Positions 200 through 60,439 of a stretch of 64,000 nucleotides of DNA are shown here, in pieces. A program made the translations under genes and the position numbers. Each line of letters starts with the position of its first letter. Within the stretch, counting starts at the first letter, position 1. This stretch comes from Gammaproteobacteria bacterium (GTDB lineage Bacteria > Pseudomonadota > Gammaproteobacteria > SURF-13). The notes below the pieces were generated by a model that made no database searches, was not told where the DNA came from, and saw only the letters and a list, made by a program, of their open reading frames with translations. The stretch spans positions 62,001 through 126,000 of the forward strand of contig JAUXUQ010000002.1 of the NCBI GenBank assembly GCA_030680605.1, written 5' to 3'.

Positions 200-880
200 C
201 TAGAATATTTGTCGTACGGCGGACAGTGCGATGGTGTTTCCCCCGAAGAGATTGAGGCTCAGCCCCTGCCCGTTATTGCCCAGGGTGACACTCTCGACGC
301 GGGCATCGATCAGGGTGTCCGCGCCCTGCGCACGACCATCGATGAGAGTGGTGGCCTGGATGCGATAGCGACCGGGTGCGGCTGCCTCACCCCCATCCGT
401 GGTTCCGTCCCAGCCAAAGGACACGAGTCCACTGGCTTGCTGGCCGAGGTCGAGGCGGCGTACCAGTTGGCCTGCGGCGTCGTAAATGGCGAGGGTAAGG
501 TTTGAGGTACTCGTGGCAAGATCCACGGCACCGCTGAGGCCTGTGTCGGGGGCGAGTATGTTGCCATAGCTGCCCGGAGCCAGAACGCCGCGGCCTACCA
601 TACTGGCGCCCTGCAGGGCCTGGCCGGAGCCCAGACTGTCGGCTAGTTTGGAGAAGGCTGTCTGCAAATCCTGGATGCCGCTTACAGTACTGAACTGTGC
701 GATCTGGCTCAGGAATTCGGCATTATCGAGCGGTTTGGTGGGGTTCTGGTTCTGCAGTTGTGCAGTCATAAGTTTCAGAAACTGTTCCTGGCCGAGCTTG
801 TTTTTGGCGCCGGATGCCGGGGCTGTGGTCGTCGCCAAACCCAGTGCTTCATAAGGATTGGTGCTTTCTATAGTGTTCAT
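200..880 (-). CDS. flgD: Flagellar hook cap / hook assembly scaffold FlgD
   Basis: This 226-residue protein is the usual length for FlgD. The N-terminal third carries the conserved FlgD block with LGQEQFLKLMTAQLQNQNP at about residues 29-47 and FLSQIAQFSTV near 57-67. The C-terminal part is the FlgD Ig/tudor-like region with a WDG turn. FlgD caps the growing hook and promotes FlgE polymerisation, then is replaced by hook-associated proteins. It is exported by the flagellar apparatus. A GGAG site precedes the ATG. It lies between flgC and flgE, 13 bases after flgC, which fits cotranscription from the sigma-54 promoter upstream of flgB. Confidence 0.96.
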   Translation of the reverse strand: MNTIESTNPYEALGLATTTAPASGAKNKLGQEQFLKLMTAQLQNQNPTKPLDNAEFLSQIAQFSTVSGIQDLQTAFSKLADSLGSGQALQGASMVGRGVLAPGSYGNILAPDTGLSGAVDLATSTSNLTLAIYDAAGQLVRRLDLGQQASGLVSFGWDGTTDGGEAAAPGRYRIQATTLIDGRAQGADTLIDARVESVTLGNNGQGLSLNLFGGNTIALSAVRQIF

Positions 881-893
881 TTATGTCTCCTGC

Positions 894-1322
894 CTACTGG
901 CCAAGTGTGAGTGTTTTCAGTAGCAGCTGTTTTGAGGTATTGGCCGCCTCGACGTTGCTCTGGTAAGAGCGCGAGGCTGAAATCATGTTAGCCATTTCCT
1001 CTACCATGTTGACGTTGGGTAGATAGATATAGCCATTGGCGTCGGCCTGGGGATTCCCGGGTTCGTAGCGGCTTTGTACCGGTGCCTTGCTTTCAACGAT
1101 GCCGAGCACCTGCACGCCGCGGCTGGCGTTTTGCCCCAGATCATTGCCGCCGTTGAGTGCACCCATCACGGCGGCGAATACCGGATGACGTGCACGGTAG
1201 GCTTGTTCCGCACTGCTGCTGGCAGTTTCTGCGTTGGCGAGATTGCTGGATGTGGTGTTGAGGCGCAGCGACTGCGCGCTCATGCCGCTGCCGGCGATAT
1301 CAAAGATATTGAGTAGTGACAT
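894..1322 (-). CDS. flgC: Flagellar proximal rod protein FlgC
   Basis: FlgC is a rod subunit in the periplasmic drive shaft. The N-terminus reads SLLNIFDIAGSGMSAQSLRL, almost the family consensus, and the C-terminus has NVNMVEEMANMISASRSYQ, the typical rod-protein terminal helix. Two starts are possible, at 1328 and 1322. I prefer 1322 because the AGGTGA site then sits at a normal distance and the protein begins exactly where FlgC proteins do (142 residues). The 1328 ATG overlaps the flgB stop as ATGA. Either way the gene is translationally close-coupled to flgB. Confidence 0.95.
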   Translation of the reverse strand: MSLLNIFDIAGSGMSAQSLRLNTTSSNLANAETASSSAEQAYRARHPVFAAVMGALNGGNDLGQNASRGVQVLGIVESKAPVQSRYEPGNPQADANGYIYLPNVNMVEEMANMISASRSYQSNVEAANTSKQLLLKTLTLGQ

Positions 1323-1324
1323 AG

Positions 1325-1726
1325 TCATTCACCTCTGATGGCGCCCAACAGGCCCTTGATTTTACCGTTGAGAAAGGTAATGCTGGCCGAATAGCGCAAT
1401 GCGTTCTGCGCAAACTCGGCATGCTCCACTTGCGTATCTACCGTGTTGCCGTCCAGGGAGGCTTGGGACGGGTTGCGGTAGAGCAAGGAATATTCATCGC
1501 GGATGCCGGTGCCGGGCTGTATGTGCTTTGCATGGGTGACTGCGACCGATGTGTGGTCACCCGCCGCCTGCGCGCTGGCAAGCGCGGCCTTGAAGTCGAT
1601 GTCGCGTGCGCGGTAGTGGGGGGTGTCGGCGTTGGCGAGGTTGGTGGCGAGGATTTCGGCACGCTGTGCATACAGGCCGAGTGCCTGCTCATGTACTCCA
1701 AATGCGCCATCAAGTGTTATCGGCAT
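1325..1726 (-). CDS. flgB: Flagellar proximal rod protein FlgB
   Basis: At 133 residues this is a normal FlgB. The conserved N-terminal rod signature is visible as AEILATNLANADTPHYRARD at about residues 23-42, and the C-terminal helix contains NALRYSASITFLNGKI. FlgB is the first rod component assembled on the MS ring/FliE. It is first in the flgBCDE unit and lies about 28 bases downstream of the inferred transcription start of a strong sigma-54 promoter (1764-1779), so it is probably a middle-class (RpoN-dependent) flagellar operon. Confidence 0.96.
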   Translation of the reverse strand: MPITLDGAFGVHEQALGLYAQRAEILATNLANADTPHYRARDIDFKAALASAQAAGDHTSVAVTHAKHIQPGTGIRDEYSLLYRNPSQASLDGNTVDTQVEHAEFAQNALRYSASITFLNGKIKGLLGAIRGE

Positions 1727-1763
1727 GTTGCTGGTCCTGCTTTAGCTTCCTGCGCTGCACAGG

Positions 1764-1779
1764 AGCAATCTCCGTGCCA
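1764..1779 (-). promoter_or_regulatory. Sigma-54 (RpoN) promoter for flgBCDE
   Basis: Reading the minus strand gives TGGCAC-GGAGA-TTGCT, a full match to the -24/-12 consensus TGGCAC-N5-TTGCW with exactly 10 bases between the invariant GG and GC. The inferred start is near 1754, giving a leader of about 28 bases before flgB. In Pseudomonas and Vibrio, flgB operons are RpoN-dependent with a bacterial enhancer-binding protein; that activator is not in this window. Confidence 0.9.
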
Positions 1780-2135
1780 GACGTGGGAAAGCCTGCCGGG
1801 AGCAGAAAAACAGCAGTTGCAGAGGGGATGGGCGGCACGGCGACAGGTGGGTGTGCGGCAAGATCATGCCGCAGCGGCAAGGTGTGGGGAAGGCGTACAG
1901 GTTATCGGCAGGCCGTGACCGGAACTGAAGTCAGTCTCGGGTATGCGAAGAACGGTGGCCGGATGTCAGCAGTAGTGCCGCCGGAGTCACGTGCTCGCGG
2001 ATAGGGGCGATTTCTGCAGCTGATCCGGACAGGATAATTCCGTTAAGCAGCATACCCAACAGGCCACCGGCGTCCCGCTGCCACCCCACGCATACAAGAT
2101 CCTGCATGGTTGTTACGGATGTCCTGCGGCGGCAG
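1780..2135. other. Intergenic region between cheR and flgB
   Basis: About 350 bases lie between the cheR stop and the flgB promoter. I see no convincing gene. Short reading frames here have no recognisable domain and no ribosome binding site. No T-tailed hairpin follows cheR, so termination there is unclear. The region is the natural place for upstream activator sites of the sigma-54 promoter, but I cannot point to a specific site. Confidence 0.6.
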
Positions 2136-2987
2136 CTATCGCCCCGCCGTACTGTTCTTCAATCGGTAAACCACCCCGCTGGCATAGTGCACCATTTCGA
2201 AAGCGCTGCTCAGGTTGGAAATGGCCTCCGATGAGCCAAGGATCAGGTAGCCATCAGGATTGAGCGCTTGTGCCATCCGGGTCAGGATGTCACGCTTGAG
2301 GTCTGCCGAGAAATAGATCAACACGTTGCGGCAGAAGATGATGTCGAATTTGGCCAGTGCGGCGTAGCTTTGTTTGAGGTTTAACTCCTTGAAGCTCACG
2401 CGGGTGCGCAGCTCGGGTTTCACCTGCCACTTGCCGTCCACGGGTGTGAAGAAACGCTGGCGCCGCTCGGGTGACAGGCCACGTGCAAGGCTGGTGCTGT
2501 CATAGATGCCGGCATTGGCCTCTTTCAGGATGGCGCTGGAGATATCAGTGCCGACGATCTGTACCCCCCATGTCAGTTGCCCGGGCTTGCCCAGCAAATA
2601 CTCCTGCACCGCAATGCTGATGGAGTACGGTTCCTGGCCCGAGGAGCAGGCGGCGGACCAGATACGCAGGGGCCGGCCGAGCGGGGTCTGTGCAAACTGT
2701 GGCAGGATATGCAGGGTAAGCGCGTCATACGGTGTAGTATCACGGAACCAGAGCGTCTCATTGGTGGTCATGGCGTCGATCACGCGTGTGCGCAGGCTGG
2801 CCCCGCGTATGCCGGACAGGCGTGTGACCAGTTCACCGAGCGTCGCCAGACCTTCTTCCTGCATCAGGCGGCCCAGGCGACTGCTGACCAGATAGTGTTT
2901 GTCTTCGCCCAAGAGGATGCCGCAGGCTTCTTCCAGAAGAATACGGAAGGCCTGGTACTCTGAAGGTGTAATGGTTGGTGAGGCCAA
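2136..2987 (-). CDS. cheR: Chemotaxis protein methyltransferase CheR
   Basis: CheR methylates specific glutamates on chemoreceptors using S-adenosylmethionine. The 283-residue protein has the N-terminal CheR helical domain (about 1-75) and the SAM-binding domain (about 80-280). Visible motifs are IWSAACSSGQEPYSI at about 109-123, the SAM loop, and FDIIFCRNVLIYF near 214-226. The start is a TTG at 2987 that gives the usual N-terminal length; an internal ATG would cut into the domain. It lies downstream of cheV on the same strand, separated by 369 bases, matching the pseudomonad order cheR-cheV-flgA. Confidence 0.93.
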   Translation of the reverse strand: MASPTITPSEYQAFRILLEEACGILLGEDKHYLVSSRLGRLMQEEGLATLGELVTRLSGIRGASLRTRVIDAMTTNETLWFRDTTPYDALTLHILPQFAQTPLGRPLRIWSAACSSGQEPYSISIAVQEYLLGKPGQLTWGVQIVGTDISSAILKEANAGIYDSTSLARGLSPERRQRFFTPVDGKWQVKPELRTRVSFKELNLKQSYAALAKFDIIFCRNVLIYFSADLKRDILTRMAQALNPDGYLILGSSEAISNLSSAFEMVHYASGVVYRLKNSTAGR

Positions 2988-3356
2988 AAGATAAGCTCTT
3001 TTTGGGTGGAATATGTGGTTTATGATAACGCCGGTTGCAGGATAAAGTGCAGAAAGATGGCGGAATCGCCGATGCAGCGTGAGAAAACGCTCACCCCGTG
3101 CGCATTATAACCGGGCTGGCGATGATTGCCGCAGGCGTGATTTGAACAGTGATTTGGGCACGGTTCAGTACACACCTGCTGTATCGATGTGATCGCCGGG
3201 GCCGGACACACGCACGAATCGAGCCTACAGTAACCAGTAAGTAGTTCCCGCTGAATGCTGCGCATCAAGTCCGGTGCTTGTGACCCGATATGCACCGCTA
3301 TCATGTGCCGAGGATGATCTGGGGCCGTTGCGGTCAGCCCGGGCCGGACTCTGTAT
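2988..3356. other. Intergenic region between cheV and cheR
   Basis: No credible gene is seen; a 94-codon minus-strand frame here is Cys/His/Pro-rich with no domain. On the minus strand a TATAAT hexamer (3104-3109) could be a -10 box for cheR, but no good -35 lies at the right distance. A small GTGAG/CTCAC hairpin sits near 3079-3094. Neither is strong enough to call as a promoter or terminator. Confidence 0.5.
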
Positions 3357-4307
3357 CTAGGCCGCCTGGACCGAAGATGCCTGCTCCAGGTGCTTGATTA
3401 CGTTCTGGGCCAGGTCATCGGCATGAAACTTGGGCAGGAAGGTGTTGGCCCCGACTTTCTGTACCAGGGCGGCGTTGAATACCCCGCTCAACGAGGTGTG
3501 CAACATCACATACAAATCCTTCAGGCGTGGATCTTTTCTGATTTCGGTAGTGAGTGTATAGCCGTCCATTTCCGGCATCTCGACGTCCGAGATCACCATC
3601 GCAAAACGTTCCGTAACCGACACGTCTTCATCGGCCAGCTTCTGCAGCAGTGTAAGCGCCTGGCGCCCGTCGCACGCCACGGTGCAGGTCACGCCGAGCT
3701 GTTCCAGCGTACGCACGATCTGCTTGCGCGCTACGCTCGAATCATCCACGACCAGAATATGCTGATGCGTGCGTCGCTCTGCGGCTTCCGCGCCACTGCT
3801 CTGGAGTACGGCATCAGAGACTTCGGTTACGGTGCCACTTACCTCGGCCAGCACTTTTTCCACGTCGATGATCTCGACCAGATCGTTATCGACATGTGTT
3901 ACCGCCGTCATATAACTGTTGTTGCCGGCGCCCTTGGGCGGCGGCAGGATGGTTTCCCATTTCATATTGACGATGCGGTCTACGCTACTGACCAGAAACC
4001 CCTGTATCGAGCGGTTGTACTCAGTAATAATGATAAAGCTGCCGGCATACTCTTTGAGGGCGGGACCGCCGATAGCCAGACCCAGATCCATCACGGGGAT
4101 GGTTTTGCCGCGCATGTGCGCCATACCGCGCACGACAGGGTGTGAGCGCGGCACATGGGTGAGTGGCGGGCACTTGATCACTTCCTGGATCTTGAATACG
4201 TTAATGCCGAAACGCTGACGGCTGCCAAGGCGAAACAGCAGCAACTCCAGCCGGTTGTGTCCAACCAGACGTGTGCGTTGATTAACCTCGTCCATTACGC
4301 CTGCCAT
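3357..4307 (-). CDS. cheV: Chemotaxis coupling protein with receiver domain, CheV
   Basis: The 316-residue protein joins a CheW-like coupling domain (about 15-155) to a response-regulator receiver domain (about 183-307). The receiver has the acidic pair D188/D189, the phosphoacceptor D241 in VISDVEMPEMDG, the conserved Thr271 and Lys293, so it should be phosphorylatable by CheA. CheV couples receptors to CheA and acts as an adaptation or phosphate-sink component. A strong AGGAGGG site precedes the ATG. It diverges from flgA across 123 bases that contain a candidate sigma-28 promoter on its own strand and a sigma-54 promoter on the other. Confidence 0.95.
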   Translation of the reverse strand: MAGVMDEVNQRTRLVGHNRLELLLFRLGSRQRFGINVFKIQEVIKCPPLTHVPRSHPVVRGMAHMRGKTIPVMDLGLAIGGPALKEYAGSFIIITEYNRSIQGFLVSSVDRIVNMKWETILPPPKGAGNNSYMTAVTHVDNDLVEIIDVEKVLAEVSGTVTEVSDAVLQSSGAEAAERRTHQHILVVDDSSVARKQIVRTLEQLGVTCTVACDGRQALTLLQKLADEDVSVTERFAMVISDVEMPEMDGYTLTTEIRKDPRLKDLYVMLHTSLSGVFNAALVQKVGANTFLPKFHADDLAQNVIKHLEQASSVQAA

Positions 4308-4353
4308 GATACCCTCCTGAATAATATGGGAACTGCACTCTAGCTAATTGGGA

Positions 4354-4381
4354 ATAGCGGCGGGCAGGGCACAAGACTTTA
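4354..4381 (-). promoter_or_regulatory. Candidate sigma-28 (FliA) promoter for cheV
   Basis: On the minus strand the sequence reads TAAAGTCT, 12 bases, GCCGCTAT. The consensus is TAAAGTTT-N11-GCCGATAA, so both boxes are close but the spacer is one base longer than ideal. The inferred start gives a leader of about 40 bases to cheV. Late-class control of a chemotaxis adaptor is what one would expect. Confidence 0.55.
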
Positions 4382-4402
4382 GTCTGGGAGACATCCGCCT
4401 GC

Positions 4403-4418
4403 TGGCATGTGATTTGCA
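4403..4418 (+). promoter_or_regulatory. Sigma-54 (RpoN) promoter for flgA
   Basis: The sequence TGGCAT-GTGAT-TTGCA matches the -24/-12 consensus with exact GG-N10-GC spacing. With the -12 C at 4417 the transcript would start near 4429, only about two bases before the first usable flgA ATG at 4431. This implies a nearly leaderless message or a different start codon for flgA. Confidence 0.85.
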
Positions 4419-4430
4419 CTGATTCCAGAC

Positions 4431-5240
4431 ATGAAAACCCGGAACGCAGAAAAAATACCTGCCCAGTATGTCCTGCCACAGGCTGTCGAGAGCTGGCACC
4501 GGCCCGTACGGGCAGGTGCCAGCGGGGGTGGCAACTGCCTGCTGACAGGGGTACTTGCAGTATGGCTGCTGGGCTGTAGTTCGGCGCTGGCGGATGCATT
4601 TCAGGATCTGGATCAGATCATCGATGCCGTGAGTGAGTTTGCCGTGGAGGCGGGTGCTGACAGGTCAGCACGGGCAGGCGGGACATACCGGGTAGAGGTA
4701 GGCGCACTCGATTCGCGGCTGCGGCTTGCCGCATGCGGCACAAAATTGACGGTTTATGCACCGCCGGGCACGCGTAGTCTGGGCAATACTACCGTGGGGG
4801 TGCGCTGTAAGGGCCCCCGGCCCTGGTCGCTCTATGTGCCGGTGGCCATCAAGCTGTATGGTGAGGCCGTTGTGGCGGCGCGTCCCTTGGCCATGGCCAG
4901 CGTTCTGAAGTTGCAGGATGTACGCATGGCCCAGGTTGAGTTGAGTGCTGGTGCTGCCGGCGTGCTGACAGACCCGCAGCAGGTGGTGGGTAAGGTGTTG
5001 CGGCGGCCCCTGCCGGGCGATATGGTAGTGACGTTAGATAGCCTGGAAGAGCCGCGTCTGGTGCGTCGCGACGAGCAAGTGATACTGGTGGCCGAGGGCT
5101 CAGGTATGGAGGTGCGCATGCAGGGCCGGGCCCTTACCGATGGTGTTGCGGGCGAGCTTATAAAGGTGCGTAATCTCGGCTCCAAGCGGGTGATTGAGGG
5201 TACAGTGGTGGCGCCCGGCCTGATCCGGGTGCATATGTAA
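4431..5240 (+). CDS. flgA: Flagellar P-ring assembly chaperone FlgA
   Basis: FlgA is a periplasmic chaperone for FlgI P-ring assembly. The 269-residue translation has an unusually long stretch (about 35 residues) before a hydrophobic Sec-type segment (about 36-54, ending ALADA). It then has the SAF/ChapFlgA domain (roughly 115-269) with VPVAIKLYGEAVVAARPLA and a C-terminal GTVVAPGLIRV. Earlier in-frame sequence has a stop at 4410 and there is no downstream in-frame ATG, GTG or TTG before the signal segment, so 4431 is the only standard start although no clear ribosome binding site precedes it. A sigma-54 promoter lies immediately upstream. Confidence 0.92.
   Translation: MKTRNAEKIPAQYVLPQAVESWHRPVRAGASGGGNCLLTGVLAVWLLGCSSALADAFQDLDQIIDAVSEFAVEAGADRSARAGGTYRVEVGALDSRLRLAACGTKLTVYAPPGTRSLGNTTVGVRCKGPRPWSLYVPVAIKLYGEAVVAARPLAMASVLKLQDVRMAQVELSAGAAGVLTDPQQVVGKVLRRPLPGDMVVTLDSLEEPRLVRRDEQVILVAEGSGMEVRMQGRALTDGVAGELIKVRNLGSKRVIEGTVVAPGLIRVHM
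4493..4522. repeat. Near-perfect 30-base inverted repeat inside the flgA 5' coding region
   Basis: Arms CTGGCACC (4493-4500) and GGTGCCAG (4515-4522) flank a second perfect palindrome GCCCGTACGGGC (4502-4513); only the 4501/4514 pair is mismatched. In the mRNA this would be a very stable hairpin about 65 bases from the inferred start, within the odd N-terminal extension before the signal peptide. A regulatory role is inference. Confidence 0.7.
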
Positions 5241-5255
5241 GGGCATAAACAGGGC

Positions 5256-5282
5256 TAAAGTTTCCATTTTGCCTGCCGCTAC
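5256..5282 (+). promoter_or_regulatory. Sigma-28 (FliA) promoter for flgMN
   Basis: TAAAGTTT, 11 bases, GCCGCTAC: the -35 is perfect, the spacing exact and the -10 matches 6 of 8 positions of GCCGATAA. It lies about 44 bases upstream of the flgM ATG. FliA-driven flgM expression is the known feedback arrangement, since FlgM is the anti-sigma factor for FliA. Confidence 0.88.
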
Positions 5283-5325
5283 AATCAGCGGGGAACTATA
5301 AATAGGATTATTGGAGTGCTGAGTC

Positions 5326-5643
5326 ATGACGCGAGAAATTGATGCATTGGTTGCCGGGCTGGGTAAGTCTCACGCCAAGGGTTCCGAGGCGCGCGTGGAG
5401 CGTGGGCAGGCATCGCAGGCGCAGGATAGCCATGTCGCTCCGGTTGCTGACAGGCTGAGCCTTACCGAAACCAGCGCCCGGGTGCAGGAGCTGCAGGCGC
5501 GGGTAGCTTCATTGCCTGTGGTCGACGAGCAGCGTGTGCAGGAGATCAAGCAGGCGATTGCCCAAGGTAGCTACGGGATCGACTCTGCGCGCGTTGCCGA
5601 AAAGATCGTGCGGCTGGAAGCCGCGCTCACGGATAAAGCCTGA
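5326..5643 (+). CDS. flgM: Anti-sigma-28 factor FlgM
   Basis: FlgM binds and inhibits FliA until the hook-basal body is finished and FlgM is exported. The 105-residue protein has the expected disordered N-terminal half and the C-terminal sigma-binding helices, visible as DRLSLTETSARVQELQ at about 43-58 and EIKQAIAQGSYGIDSARVA near 73-91. The family is usually about 90-110 residues. GGAG lies nine bases before the ATG. It is preceded by its own FliA promoter and followed seven bases later by flgN. Confidence 0.95.
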   Translation: MTREIDALVAGLGKSHAKGSEARVERGQASQAQDSHVAPVADRLSLTETSARVQELQARVASLPVVDEQRVQEIKQAIAQGSYGIDSARVAEKIVRLEAALTDKA

Positions 5644-5650
5644 GCACGCC

Positions 5651-6139
5651 ATGACATCGCCCATGCACGCAGCTGACTCTTCCTCGGCCTCGCTGCTGGA
5701 AATTATGCAGTGCGGAATCGAACACTGTATGCAGTTATTGCAGGTGTTGCATCGTGAGCACACTGCAGTGACCAGTAACACCCCGGAGTTGCTGGAGCAG
5801 GCAGCACAAGAAAAACTGTACTGGTTACGGCAGGTGGAGGCGCTCGTCGATGCCCGCAGTGATGGCCTGCGCGCGGCAGGCGTGACGGGTGATCCACAGA
5901 GTGCAGCACCTGGCTTGACTGCCCACCCGGATGTTGTCGCACGCTGGCAACAGGTGCAGCGCATCCTGGTGGAGTGTCAGCGCCAGAACCAGATCAATGG
6001 CAGTGTCATAGAGCTCAGCCGTCGCCATACACTGCGTGCGCTTTCCCTGCTCCGTGGCCAGTCCGCCGACCAGACGGTTTACAGTGCCTCTGGTGAGGCA
6101 TTCGGGCCACCTCCGCCGCACATGCTGGCAACCGCCTGA
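5651..6139 (+). CDS. flgN: Flagellar export chaperone FlgN
   Basis: FlgN is the cytosolic chaperone for the hook-filament junction proteins FlgK and FlgL. The 162-residue product is strongly helical, with a long N-terminal helix (SLLEIMQCGIEHCMQLLQVL) and a conserved NQINGSVIELSRRHTLRAL stretch near residues 115-133, typical of the FlgN family. The start at 5651 is seven bases after the flgM stop; no strong ribosome binding site is seen, so it may be coupled to flgM translation. Function is assigned from position after flgM together with this helical motif. Confidence 0.9.
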   Translation: MTSPMHAADSSSASLLEIMQCGIEHCMQLLQVLHREHTAVTSNTPELLEQAAQEKLYWLRQVEALVDARSDGLRAAGVTGDPQSAAPGLTAHPDVVARWQQVQRILVECQRQNQINGSVIELSRRHTLRALSLLRGQSADQTVYSASGEAFGPPPPHMLATA

Positions 6140-6190
6140 TCTTTGACGCCCCGGTTTTATAGATCACACCTGCCCTGCACTGCCTGGCCG

Positions 6191-6955
6191 ATGCCCGCTA
6201 CCCATACGCCCGAGATACTGGCGGAACAGGCTGTTGACAAGGGTGTAACACGGGTGGAAAGAGTCACCCATGGGGCGCGTATTGCAGGCCTGGTGCTACG
6301 GCTGCATCAGAAACGCGCACTACTCTCGGTAGGCGTGCCGGGTGTAGCTGAGCGGTACAACAGTACCCTGCTTTCCGTGCGACCCGACAACAACAGCATG
6401 TTGCTGGATGAGTTGATCCCCAGGCAGGGCCATGCGCATCTGATTCAGCAGCGTGCGCTGCATGTGCAGGGACAATTGCGCGGTGTCGAGATCGATTTTT
6501 CCAGTGTGTTGCTCGAAGCTGGCTCCAAAGATGGCATGGCCTACTACCGGGTGGCGTTACCCGGCACGTTGAACTACGCGCAACGCCGCTCCCATTATCG
6601 CGCCCGCATCGGGGCGGGTAGTCAGATACGAGTAACTTTCATGACTGCATGGGGCGAGACGTTGTCGGGTCAGCTGTCTGATATTGCGGTGGGCGGACTC
6701 GGCGCCCGATGCAATTTTCCTGATACAGCGCTCAACCATGGCGACCTCATTCCCCGCTGTGTGATCAGGTTTGCGCCGCATGACGAGATATCGAGCGCAG
6801 TAGAGGTGCGTTCTGTGAGCAGGGAGATACAGTCAGGCCAGTGGCGTGTGGGCGTGCGCTTTTTGGATTTGGATATGGCGACGGAGGCGCGCATAGCACG
6901 TTTTGTGGCATCACTTGACCGCGAGATGCGCAAGCAGGACAGACAGCGGAAGTAG
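6191..6955 (+). CDS. ycgR: PilZ-domain flagellar brake protein (YcgR/FlgZ type)
   Basis: The 254-residue protein has an N-terminal YcgR-like domain (about 30-125) and a C-terminal PilZ domain (about 130-245). The c-di-GMP binding elements are visible as RSHYR (R133 and R137, RxxxR) and DIAVGG (D164 to G169, the D/NxSxxG motif with Ala for Ser). YcgR-type proteins bind c-di-GMP and slow the flagellar motor. It follows flgMN as in Pseudomonas flgZ. A TTG at 6143 would add 16 residues without domain character; I prefer the ATG at 6191, although neither has a strong ribosome binding site. Several c-di-GMP enzymes are encoded elsewhere in this window. Confidence 0.88.
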   Translation: MPATHTPEILAEQAVDKGVTRVERVTHGARIAGLVLRLHQKRALLSVGVPGVAERYNSTLLSVRPDNNSMLLDELIPRQGHAHLIQQRALHVQGQLRGVEIDFSSVLLEAGSKDGMAYYRVALPGTLNYAQRRSHYRARIGAGSQIRVTFMTAWGETLSGQLSDIAVGGLGARCNFPDTALNHGDLIPRCVIRFAPHDEISSAVEVRSVSREIQSGQWRVGVRFLDLDMATEARIARFVASLDREMRKQDRQRK

Positions 6956-57132: not shown

Positions 57133-57159
57133 TAAAGTCAGCGCGCCATCTGCCGATAA
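57133..57159 (+). promoter_or_regulatory. Near-perfect sigma-28 (FliA) promoter for the HDOD/c-di-GMP operon
   Basis: TAAAGTCA, 11 bases, GCCGATAA: exact spacing, perfect -10 and only two mismatches in the extended -35. The leader to the first gene at 57293 would be about 125 bases. This is the best FliA promoter in the window. Confidence 0.88.
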
Positions 57160-57292
57160 CCTGTCAGCTAACCTCGACCTTGGGAAATATCCCCCGGGTG
57201 CATGGGCGCGTCAAGGGTAGTGCCGATGCGCATCCTGCCTATTCCACAAGCCATTGTTTGGCATGGATATTATACAGAACAGGGGTTCTTTA

Positions 57293-57640
57293 ATGGGGAT
57301 TGTAAAAACCGTCAACCTGGCACCTGGCATGACACTGGAGAGTGATGTCAGGGATCGTAGCGGCCGGTTGCTGTTGCGATTGAATGCTCAAATTACCGAA
57401 AAATCCTTGCGTACGCTCAAGGCCTGGGGTGTTACCTGGGTGCGCATCAAGGACGTCGCTGATGCGGTCTCATCCACCGATGCCCTCCCAGTGCCCGACA
57501 TTACCCCAGCCATCCTTGAGGCGGCAAGGGATGAGGCATCGAAGTTTTTCGCACTTTCAAACCTTGAGCATCCCCTGATTCGGGAATTATTTGAAATCTG
57601 TGTGACAAAAACTTCCCTGCGCATCCAACAAGAGAAATAA
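57293..57640 (+). CDS. Small protein resembling the N-terminal domain of HD-GYP/HDOD regulators
   Basis: The 115-residue protein starts MGIVKTVNLAPGM, with AGGGG seven bases before the ATG. VNLAPGMTLESDVRDRSGRLLL and LTLKAWGVTWVRIKD-like text (here SLRTLKAWGVTWV) match the pattern of the small beta domain often fused ahead of HD-GYP domains. The C-terminal half is helical and acidic. It is followed one base after its stop by an HDOD gene, so it may be a split-off partner of that protein. Its function is unknown. Confidence 0.65.
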   Translation: MGIVKTVNLAPGMTLESDVRDRSGRLLLRLNAQITEKSLRTLKAWGVTWVRIKDVADAVSSTDALPVPDITPAILEAARDEASKFFALSNLEHPLIRELFEICVTKTSLRIQQEK

Positions 57641-57641
57641 T

Positions 57642-58487
57642 ATGCCACGCTCCGCAGAAAGCCTGGTTAAAGGGGCCATAAGTGTTGCATCGCTGCCGGA
57701 AATCTTCATACGCTTGAATGAAGAGGTCAATAACCCTTACAGCAACCTGTCTGACATAGCCGACATCATTTCCGAGGACACGGGTCTGGCAGCCAGAATG
57801 CTGAGGATTGCCAATAGTGCGATGTTCAATTTCCCATCACCAGTCCTCACCATCAGTCATGCCATTACGATTCTGGGGACAAGGCAGCTGAGGGATATCG
57901 TGCTGGCAACCTATGCCATAAAGACATTCAAGGACATTTCGGGTGACCTGGTTAACATGAGATCATTCTGGCAGCATAGCATCGCCTGCGGAATCGCGGC
58001 ACGTGTGCTGGCAACCTACCAGCGTGAGCCTAACATAGAGCGCTTTTATGTGCTGGGGTTGCTGCATGATATAGGCCTGCTTATCCTTTATCAGGAGATC
58101 CCGAGTGTTGCCAGCACAATACTCAAGAAATGCCGCCAAGAAGAATTACTTTTGTATGCCGCAGAGGAGGAGGTGCTGGGCTACAATCACGCCCTGGTGG
58201 GCAGGCTACTGCTCAAGGCGTGGAAACTCCCGGAGTCGGCGCAGGAGGCGGTAGGGTGTCATCATTGTCCGCGGCTTGCCACTTCCTATCCGGACGAGGC
58301 CGCCCTCATACATGTCGCTGACATCCTGGCGACTGCCATGCAAATGGGGGATGGCGGTGAGCACAGGGTACCCCCGATTGAGGCCGAGGCATGGGCGCGC
58401 ATAGGTCTCCAGACCAGCATGATCAATGACATAACCCAGCAAATAGATCTGCAATACAATGATGTCGTAGAGTTGTTTCTTGCCTGA
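57642..58487 (+). CDS. HDOD domain protein
   Basis: The 281-residue protein begins with the HDOD fold: SVASLPEIFIRLNEEVNNP, ISEDTGLAARMLRIANSAMF and SHAITILGTRQLRDIVLATY. It keeps part of the HD-like motif (HDIGLLILYQE, GYNHALVGRLLLKAWKLPE), but HDOD proteins are generally regulators without proven phosphodiesterase activity. It sits between the small PGM-domain protein and a GGDEF-EAL protein, with gaps of one and two bases, so the three are surely one operon under the sigma-28 promoter. Confidence 0.92.
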   Translation: MPRSAESLVKGAISVASLPEIFIRLNEEVNNPYSNLSDIADIISEDTGLAARMLRIANSAMFNFPSPVLTISHAITILGTRQLRDIVLATYAIKTFKDISGDLVNMRSFWQHSIACGIAARVLATYQREPNIERFYVLGLLHDIGLLILYQEIPSVASTILKKCRQEELLLYAAEEEVLGYNHALVGRLLLKAWKLPESAQEAVGCHHCPRLATSYPDEAALIHVADILATAMQMGDGGEHRVPPIEAEAWARIGLQTSMINDITQQIDLQYNDVVELFLA

Positions 58488-58489
58488 CC

Positions 58490-60439
58490 ATGCACCCGAC
58501 AGACAGCAGCAGGGATGAAGTAGTACACCATCTGCAGGAGCGTATTGAGCATCTGGAGCAGGTTAACCGCTGGCATATGCAGGCCCTGGACATGCTGGCT
58601 TCCATGGGCGACATGCACCGAGATGCCAGTCGCAGCCGCACACCCCACTATATATACAGTGTTACCCGCCGACACCTGGCGCGGTTGATTGATTTTGATG
58701 TTACTGCGTTTGTAGGGCTCAACGAGGAAGACTCTTCCTTCGCGCTGGATGATTGTGAGCCACAATCCAGGTTTGAAGAAATTAATCAGGAAGTCGACAG
58801 GCTCATTGATCAGGGGAAATTTGCCTGGGTTCTGAATCGGAATCATCCAGTGGTGCTGAAAGCGGGCGTCAACGGGTCACTGATATTGCTCCACGTACTT
58901 GCTTCAAAAACGCGTGTGCGAGGCGTATTCGTCGGCTTTATGGCTGAGGGCAGCAAATCACCCTCCTCTGTCGTTCTGAACTTCATATCGATCGTGCTCC
59001 ATAACTGTGCTCAGGCCCTGGAAAGTTCGGCGCTTTACAATCTGGTCAGCGCGCACAACAAGGGGCTCAAGAAAATCATACAGCAGCGTACACGTGAGCT
59101 TGAATATCAATATGGGCATGACAGTCTAACCGGCCTGCCTAACAGGCTGCTTTTCCACGACCGAATGAGGCAGGCCATATCGAGTGCTGCACGCTACAAA
59201 AGAATGGTCGCGGTAATGGTTGTCGATCTTGATATGTTTAAGCGCATTAATGACACCCTGGGGCATGAGTCGGGTGACAAGCTGCTTACAGAAGAGGGTC
59301 GGCGCCTGCTCAGGGCAATGGAAGAAACCGATCTTCTGGCCCCGCACGTGAGCGTAACAGTTTCACATCTGGGCGGTGATGAGTTCGGAATTTTGCTGAC
59401 CAGTCTGGGCGATGTTGAGTCCATTCCGCATATAGCCAAGTGCATTATCGAAGCCCTTTCCATGCCGTTGCGCATCAACGGACACGAGATACATGTTACC
59501 AGTAGCGTCGGCATAAGTTTGTACCCTGCCGACGGTGCTGACCCTGAAACCCTGCTCAAGAATGCCAATGCTGCTATGCAGCATGCAAAACAGGATGGCG
59601 GCGACAGATATCTGTTTTATGCCGAGGAAATGAACTCTGCTTCATTGCAGCAACTTTTGCTGGAAAACAGCCTGCGTCATGCTGTTGGGAACAATGAGCT
59701 GATGCTTCATTACCAGCCCAAGGTTGATATCTGTACGGGCAATATCAGCGGTTGGGAAGCCCTTATCCGCTGGCGCCATCCGGACATAGGGGTGGTGCTG
59801 CCAAGCGGGTTCATTCCCATTGCAGAAAATACCGGACTCATAACAACCATCAGCGAATGGGTGTTGCATGCCGCCTGCAGTCAGGCAAAAGTGTGGCTGG
59901 ATGACGGGTTTTCGGATATTTGTATTTCGGTAAACTTGTCGGCCAAACAGTTCCTGCAGAAGAATATGCTTGAGCTTATTGTTTCGATTCTGGATGACGT
60001 CAAGTTGCCAGCGCGCCATCTGGAGCTGGAGATTACCGAAAGTACCATGATGAAAGATATCGAAGCTACCACCGCTACCCTTGATGCCCTGCATAAAATT
60101 GGCGTCAGACTGTCAATCGATGATTTCGGCACAGGTTATTCCTCGCTGAACTATCTGAAGCGCTTCCCCATAGATATTCTGAAGGTTGATCGCTCATTCA
60201 TACGTGATGTCACCTTCAATTCGGACGACGCCGCCATTGTGACGGCCATTATTGCCATGTCCCATAGTATGGGCCTGAAGGTGGTCGCGGAGGGTGTGGA
60301 AACCAGTGAACAGCTCGACTTTTTGCGCTCTATACAATGTGAGGAAATACAGGGCTATCTTTTCAGTGCCGCCGTTCCGGAAGATCAGGCCATCCAGATG
60401 ATGAGATCCGGCAAGCGTCTGCATCATGTGCCTTTGTGA
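58490..60439 (+). CDS. GAF-like-GGDEF-EAL c-di-GMP signalling protein
   Basis: The 649-residue protein has an N-terminal coiled coil and GAF-like sensor (about 10-185), a helical linker, a GGDEF domain (about 205-380; motif HLGGDEF, GGDEF at 295-299) and an EAL domain (about 385-640; EALIRW, NLSAKQF, EITES, DDFGTG, KVDRSF, EGVET). The EAL residues are intact. About eight extra residues (LLAPHVSV) lie before the GGDEF motif, so the usual RxxD I-site is missing from its place. It is last in the sigma-28-driven operon, which links its activity to late flagellar expression. Confidence 0.92.
   Translation: MHPTDSSRDEVVHHLQERIEHLEQVNRWHMQALDMLASMGDMHRDASRSRTPHYIYSVTRRHLARLIDFDVTAFVGLNEEDSSFALDDCEPQSRFEEINQEVDRLIDQGKFAWVLNRNHPVVLKAGVNGSLILLHVLASKTRVRGVFVGFMAEGSKSPSSVVLNFISIVLHNCAQALESSALYNLVSAHNKGLKKIIQQRTRELEYQYGHDSLTGLPNRLLFHDRMRQAISSAARYKRMVAVMVVDLDMFKRINDTLGHESGDKLLTEEGRRLLRAMEETDLLAPHVSVTVSHLGGDEFGILLTSLGDVESIPHIAKCIIEALSMPLRINGHEIHVTSSVGISLYPADGADPETLLKNANAAMQHAKQDGGDRYLFYAEEMNSASLQQLLLENSLRHAVGNNELMLHYQPKVDICTGNISGWEALIRWRHPDIGVVLPSGFIPIAENTGLITTISEWVLHAACSQAKVWLDDGFSDICISVNLSAKQFLQKNMLELIVSILDDVKLPARHLELEITESTMMKDIEATTATLDALHKIGVRLSIDDFGTGYSSLNYLKRFPIDILKVDRSFIRDVTFNSDDAAIVTAIIAMSHSMGLKVVAEGVETSEQLDFLRSIQCEEIQGYLFSAAVPEDQAIQMMRSGKRLHHVPL

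Follow-up and report, generated by a model that had tools for sequence, protein, structure and literature searches.

We find a near-perfect match to the FliA (sigma-28) promoter ahead of three closely packed genes that code for a small PGM-motif protein, an HDOD protein and a GAF-GGDEF-EAL protein. In our judgment, these genes rather probably make up a FliA-dependent late flagellar operon that works as one signalling unit, with an output that in this genome is probably a c-di-GMP phosphodiesterase easing the YcgR brake. Comparison with relatives points to a control module that has been little described: it would be switched on at a late stage of flagellum assembly, and lineages have exchanged its output enzyme. 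The window, by which we mean the whole 64,000-nucleotide stretch of DNA analysed, carries the following features at this locus.

57133..57159, + strand: predicted FliA (sigma-28) promoter, TAAAGTC-N12-GCCGATAA, exact to TAAA-N15-GCCGATAA
57160..57292, + strand: predicted 5′ leader of about 127 nt, assuming a transcription start some 7 nt past the −10
57293..57640, + strand: small protein of 115 aa with PGM motif, made up of an N-terminal beta domain and a helical hairpin
57642..58487, + strand: HDOD protein, 281 aa; Pfam HDOD 5e-62; HD-type metal-ligand residues kept
58490..60439, + strand: GAF-GGDEF-EAL protein, 649 aa; Pfam GGDEF 2e-40, EAL 1e-75

The predicted FliA site and the genes behind it

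The predicted promoter at 57133-57159 (+ strand; letters TAAAGTCAGCGCGCCATCTGCCGATAA) bears out the near-perfect FliA site of the original prediction. Performing a pattern search, we find that it is the sole exact TAAA-N15-GCCGATAA match in the 1.87-Mb genome, and shuffling the window produced no exact site in any shuffle. With the spacer relaxed to N14-16, the whole genome yielded three TAAA/GCCGATAA sites, compared to one for the reversed-pattern control. We ranked sites against a 16-position FliA consensus, TAAAGTTT-N11-GCCGATAA. Only four sites genome-wide fall within two mismatches of it: one upstream of fliC (one mismatch), and three with two mismatches each, namely the site upstream of flgM, 57133-57159 and C19:40759. 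The operon site thus ranks alongside those of fliC and flgM. Looser settings lost this resolution. Up to three mismatches gave 11 genome sites against 11 in the control, a signal equal to the control, and a 12-position consensus with at most two mismatches was uninformative (107 against 103 genome-wide). None of the other one-mismatch sites inspected in the genome stood ahead of recognisable motility genes.

Two further matches deserve mention. C19:40759-40785 (− strand), among the top four, is flanked by a GGDEF-EAL gene on one side and on the other by a 361-aa ORF whose likeness to cytochrome c peroxidase was judged by eye only. Within the window, a second perfect match, TAAA-N16-GCCGATAA at 1717-1744 (− strand), overlaps the flgB start codon (AACATGCCGATAAC) and is probably a coincidence of coding sequence.

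The operon site sits in a 238-bp gap between nagZ and the PGM gene, where a Markov model of the gap returned a comparable site in 3 of 20,000 draws (about 1.5 in 10,000). On the operon strand of this gap we found no sigma-70-like site. No terminator-like site was found on that strand either, so that read-through from nagZ is possible, and the earlier claim that the operon is switched on only after hook completion presupposes FliA alone. The leader (57160-57292) had no Rfam match, and its predicted RNA folding was nothing unusual (z −0.95).

The three ORFs are real and as tightly packed as had been claimed, with gaps of 1 nt (PGM to HDOD) and 2 nt (HDOD to GGDEF-EAL), and Pfam confirms the HDOD, GGDEF and EAL domains. 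The HDOD match (PF08668) scores 209 bits against a curated cut-off of 22.9, and residues H112, H142, D143, H183, H207 and H208 are each retained in at least 87 of 90 orthologues. The "PGM domain" needs rewording. The protein has no assignment in Pfam, NCBIfam or PHROGs, and it does belong to a real conserved protein family, as its alignment shows. At four loci (L103, L108, L122 and L177) PGM is fused to HDOD. The AF2 model of the PGM protein has a mean pLDDT of 88; its Foldseek resemblance to a small domain of RNA polymerase beta/beta′ and to MoeA was weak (best E 0.019) and was not used for function.

The third protein begins with a GAF-type region (about residues 50-200). Its first 200 residues form a single domain conserved across nearly all recognised third proteins, including the histidine kinases that occupy the same place in relatives. 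The N-domain was modelled by AF2 with a pLDDT of 90, and Foldseek returned GAF matches, including 3cit (TMt 0.81) and 3eea (E 1.7e-5). The window protein had no Pfam GAF match, and a PDB sequence search with this region gave weak matches only.

Recurrence of the operon and its promoter in relatives

Scanning genome contigs with the HDOD alignment, we obtained 80 loci, most of them with a PGM-motif gene immediately ahead of HDOD. PGM-HDOD followed by a third gene occurs in Gammaproteobacteria, Geobacterales, Nitrospinae and other groups; some lineages carry PGM-HDOD without the third gene. No orthologous operon was found in close family members of the source genome. Among the titles and passages returned by searches of open-access papers, none described a PGM-HDOD-output operon.

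To look for shared promoter motifs without bias, we scanned 54 non-redundant upstream regions for dyads of spaced 4-mers, and the sigma-28 consensus emerged as the top motif. The leading dyad, TAAA/AAAG plus CCGA/CGAT/GATA at sigma-28 spacing, was present in 11 of the 54 regions; in the shuffles, the best pair reached 7-9 each time. The core TAAAG-N14-16-CCGATA was then scored in 73 non-redundant upstream regions; 11 of them had it without a mismatch, and 21 had it when one mismatch was allowed. Controls for the latter count gave 0.3 (Markov), 0.4 (permuted motifs), 0 (reverse complement) and 0-5 (wrong spacings). Core sites were present in 27/90 operon upstreams as against 29/3578 flank windows of the same loci, and flgM upstreams, the positive control, gave 12/18 in the same test. 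The majority of relatives' sites begin 63-94 nt before the PGM gene, while the window site starts 160 nt ahead of the PGM ATG.

The carriers belong to Geobacterales, Syntrophaceae, a Gemmatimonadetes-labelled contig and several gammaproteobacterial families; many are metagenome-assembled, and some taxon labels may be wrong. Sites without mismatch are present, for instance, in Citrifermentans bremense (L067) and in Geomonas species (L072, L085, L093). On a quick HDOD tree, parsimony places 10 changes of promoter state. Neither the nearest operon relatives (L158, L163, L045 and L173) nor Thioalkalivibrio show a recognisable site; the best that L045 offers is a weak candidate whose spacer is short. 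Conservation of the promoter ahead of the same genes, which the original prediction had proposed as a check, is therefore split. Several distant lineages have the site far above chance (21/73), but the nearest operon relatives lack it and the close family lacks the operon itself. Taken on sequence comparison, FliA control receives strong support from the promoter recurring in distant lineages and is weakened by the siteless near relatives.

At two Geobacterales loci, extra sigma-28 core sites without mismatch (L067 8591 and L072 8595) lie about 600 nt downstream of the operon, and the gene that follows there may also be FliA-dependent.

Flagellar context and the exchanged output

The source genome encodes FliA at C7:167663. 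Among 369 Gammaproteobacteria, FliA is encoded by 37 of the 38 PGM-bearing genomes compared to 172 of the 331 without a PGM gene (Fisher p 3e-9, with genomes counted rather than independent events). The PGM gene was called at E at most 1e-15, and its 38 genomes span 22 families. For the wider set of loci, FliA was above the cut-off in 45/50 genomes. The sole PGM-bearing gammaproteobacterial genome without a FliA match is G089 (C1:1729750; L144, L171), where the stretch examined around the PGM gene yielded no HDOD orthologue.

The flagellar cluster lies, as had been noted, about 50 kb from the operon. At window 200-6955 we find flgD-C-B, cheR, cheV, flgA, flgM, flgN and a YcgR-type PilZ gene, and its last three genes follow a second FliA-like site.

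5256..5282, + strand: second FliA-like site, TAAAGTTT-N11-GCCGCTAC, before flgM
5326-5643, + strand: flgM, anti-sigma-28; Pfam FlgM 2e-16
about 5654-6139, + strand: flgN, chaperone; Pfam FlgN 7e-20
6191-6955, + strand: YcgR-type PilZN-PilZ protein, motor brake; Pfam PilZN 8e-14, PilZ 2e-10

The two loci come together in a relative. At L058, a 0-mismatch site and the genes for PGM, HDOD and a hybrid kinase come directly after flgA-flgM-flgN-ycgR, and beyond flgA, at the opposite end, cheV and cheR are transcribed divergently; this flgA-flgM-flgN-ycgR run corresponds to the window's own flgM-flgN-ycgR led by a FliA-like site. Homologues of flgB or flgC are also found near the operon at L051 and L082. 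The suggested feedback on the PilZ brake is plausible, because the YcgR-type brake stands behind a FliA-like site and the L058 operon directly follows flgA-flgM-flgN-ycgR.

The output encoded by the third gene differs between loci. It is a (hybrid) histidine kinase at most of them, GGDEF-EAL in this window and at 14 other loci examined, and GGDEF alone at L122. The claim that c-di-GMP turnover is switched on can thus apply to the GGDEF-EAL lineages only, as most relatives have a histidine kinase in that place. The window protein and its 14 relatives of GGDEF-EAL type all have a complete EAL catalytic set (EAL, N, E, DD, K, E and Q motifs), while GGDEF is degenerate in four of these 15 (RGDEF or TGDEF). 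Because of this, we favour phosphodiesterase as the conserved activity. About 20 EAL-domain proteins score above the cut-off in this 1.87-Mb genome, a high density; functional redundancy is therefore likely, and many inputs may act alongside the operon.

A probable late flagellar operon and its alternatives

We propose the following sequence of events. On completion of the hook, FlgM would be exported and FliA would transcribe fliC, flgM-flgN-ycgR and the PGM-HDOD-GGDEF-EAL operon together. The three products would form a complex, in which the PGM-motif protein would be the small partner, the HDOD protein may be a scaffold or switch for it, and the GAF-gated third protein would provide the output. 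Here that output would be GGDEF-EAL, most likely a c-di-GMP phosphodiesterase; in most relatives the PGM-HDOD unit would end in a (hybrid) histidine kinase. By holding down c-di-GMP in cells that have just acquired flagella, the phosphodiesterase would keep the YcgR brake off. By analogy with PdeH/YcgR and BifA, FliA would make both the brake and the enzyme that holds it off. A late, GAF-gated phosphodiesterase relieving the YcgR/PilZ brake is the likeliest local role.

Known systems resemble this scheme in part. PdeH (YhjH) of E. coli is a stand-alone EAL protein, whereas the EAL protein here carries GAF and GGDEF and is encoded by the third gene behind PGM and HDOD. Both the PdeH phosphodiesterase and the YcgR PilZ brake are FliA-dependent in E. 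coli (PMC8669469), and FliA-like sites likewise precede both the EAL operon and flgM-flgN-ycgR in the window. In P. putida, the BifA phosphodiesterase is partly FliA-controlled and has been proposed to raise swimming by lowering c-di-GMP (PMC5300878). The likeness lies in a c-di-GMP phosphodiesterase gene with a sigma-28 promoter; the difference is that, in the passages of that paper available to us, both sigma-70 and sigma-28 starts are reported and no PGM-HDOD operon is described. Swimming phenotypes have been reported for the HDOD proteins GsmR, Cj0248, SadB and PSPTO_4229, whose accounts, in the parts available to us, mention neither a PGM/GAF-output operon nor a FliA promoter (PMC11004494, PMC11813219). 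The Cj0248 structure 1vqr matches our HDOD profile (8.5e-22).

The above observations raise the question of whether the site could be a chance match, with transcription of the operon coming from nagZ or from a promoter that we did not recognise. The lack of terminator-like and sigma-70-like sites in the nagZ-PGM gap on the operon strand, the siteless nearest relatives and the perfect match over the flgB start codon are all consistent with such a reading. We nevertheless hold it to be very improbable, given the low Markov expectation for the gap and the enrichment of the sigma-28 motif ahead of orthologous operons in distant lineages. If FliA does drive the operon, the GGDEF-EAL protein might mainly make c-di-GMP, so that cells stop and attach after assembly. 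The window GGDEF keeps its motif and Mg-site residues intact and has no inhibitory RxxD I-site, and FliA of E. coli also controls an exopolysaccharide system that can impede motility (PMC8669469). EAL residues invariant in 15/15 members, set against the four degenerate GGDEF domains, make net synthesis unlikely, though less so than a chance promoter.

A broader reading overlaps with the late phosphodiesterase operon that we prefer. The unit might be a general checkpoint sensor, acting late in flagellar assembly through GAF ligand sensing and PGM-HDOD control; it would then not be about c-di-GMP as such, and its GGDEF-EAL or kinase output would be interchangeable wiring. In its favour, the GAF-type domain, PGM and HDOD stay constant as the output varies between (hybrid) histidine kinase, GGDEF-EAL and GGDEF, and some lineages retain PGM-HDOD alone. 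We regard this as a serious but tentative possibility. With similar reserve, we suppose that PGM-HDOD-GAF-output might be a signalling system that has so far gone undescribed and whose tie to sigma-28 is ancestral, in flagellated bacteria from several phyla. It would pass on the completion of flagellar assembly, or the newly motile state, to a phosphorelay or to c-di-GMP as interchangeable outputs.

FliA control of a phosphodiesterase together with the YcgR brake is already known from E. coli, as is that of the BifA phosphodiesterase from P. putida. If our proposal is true, this principle would be extended to a conserved, modular three-gene unit in several phyla, mostly in non-model organisms. 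The literature treats HDOD as a domain of unknown function and reports several motility phenotypes for it; linking one HDOD subfamily with the sigma-28 regulon, with a small partner that is fixed and with a GAF-output protein would give it a concrete and testable context. The exchange of (hybrid) histidine kinase and GGDEF-EAL at one locus also offers a clean natural experiment in rewiring.
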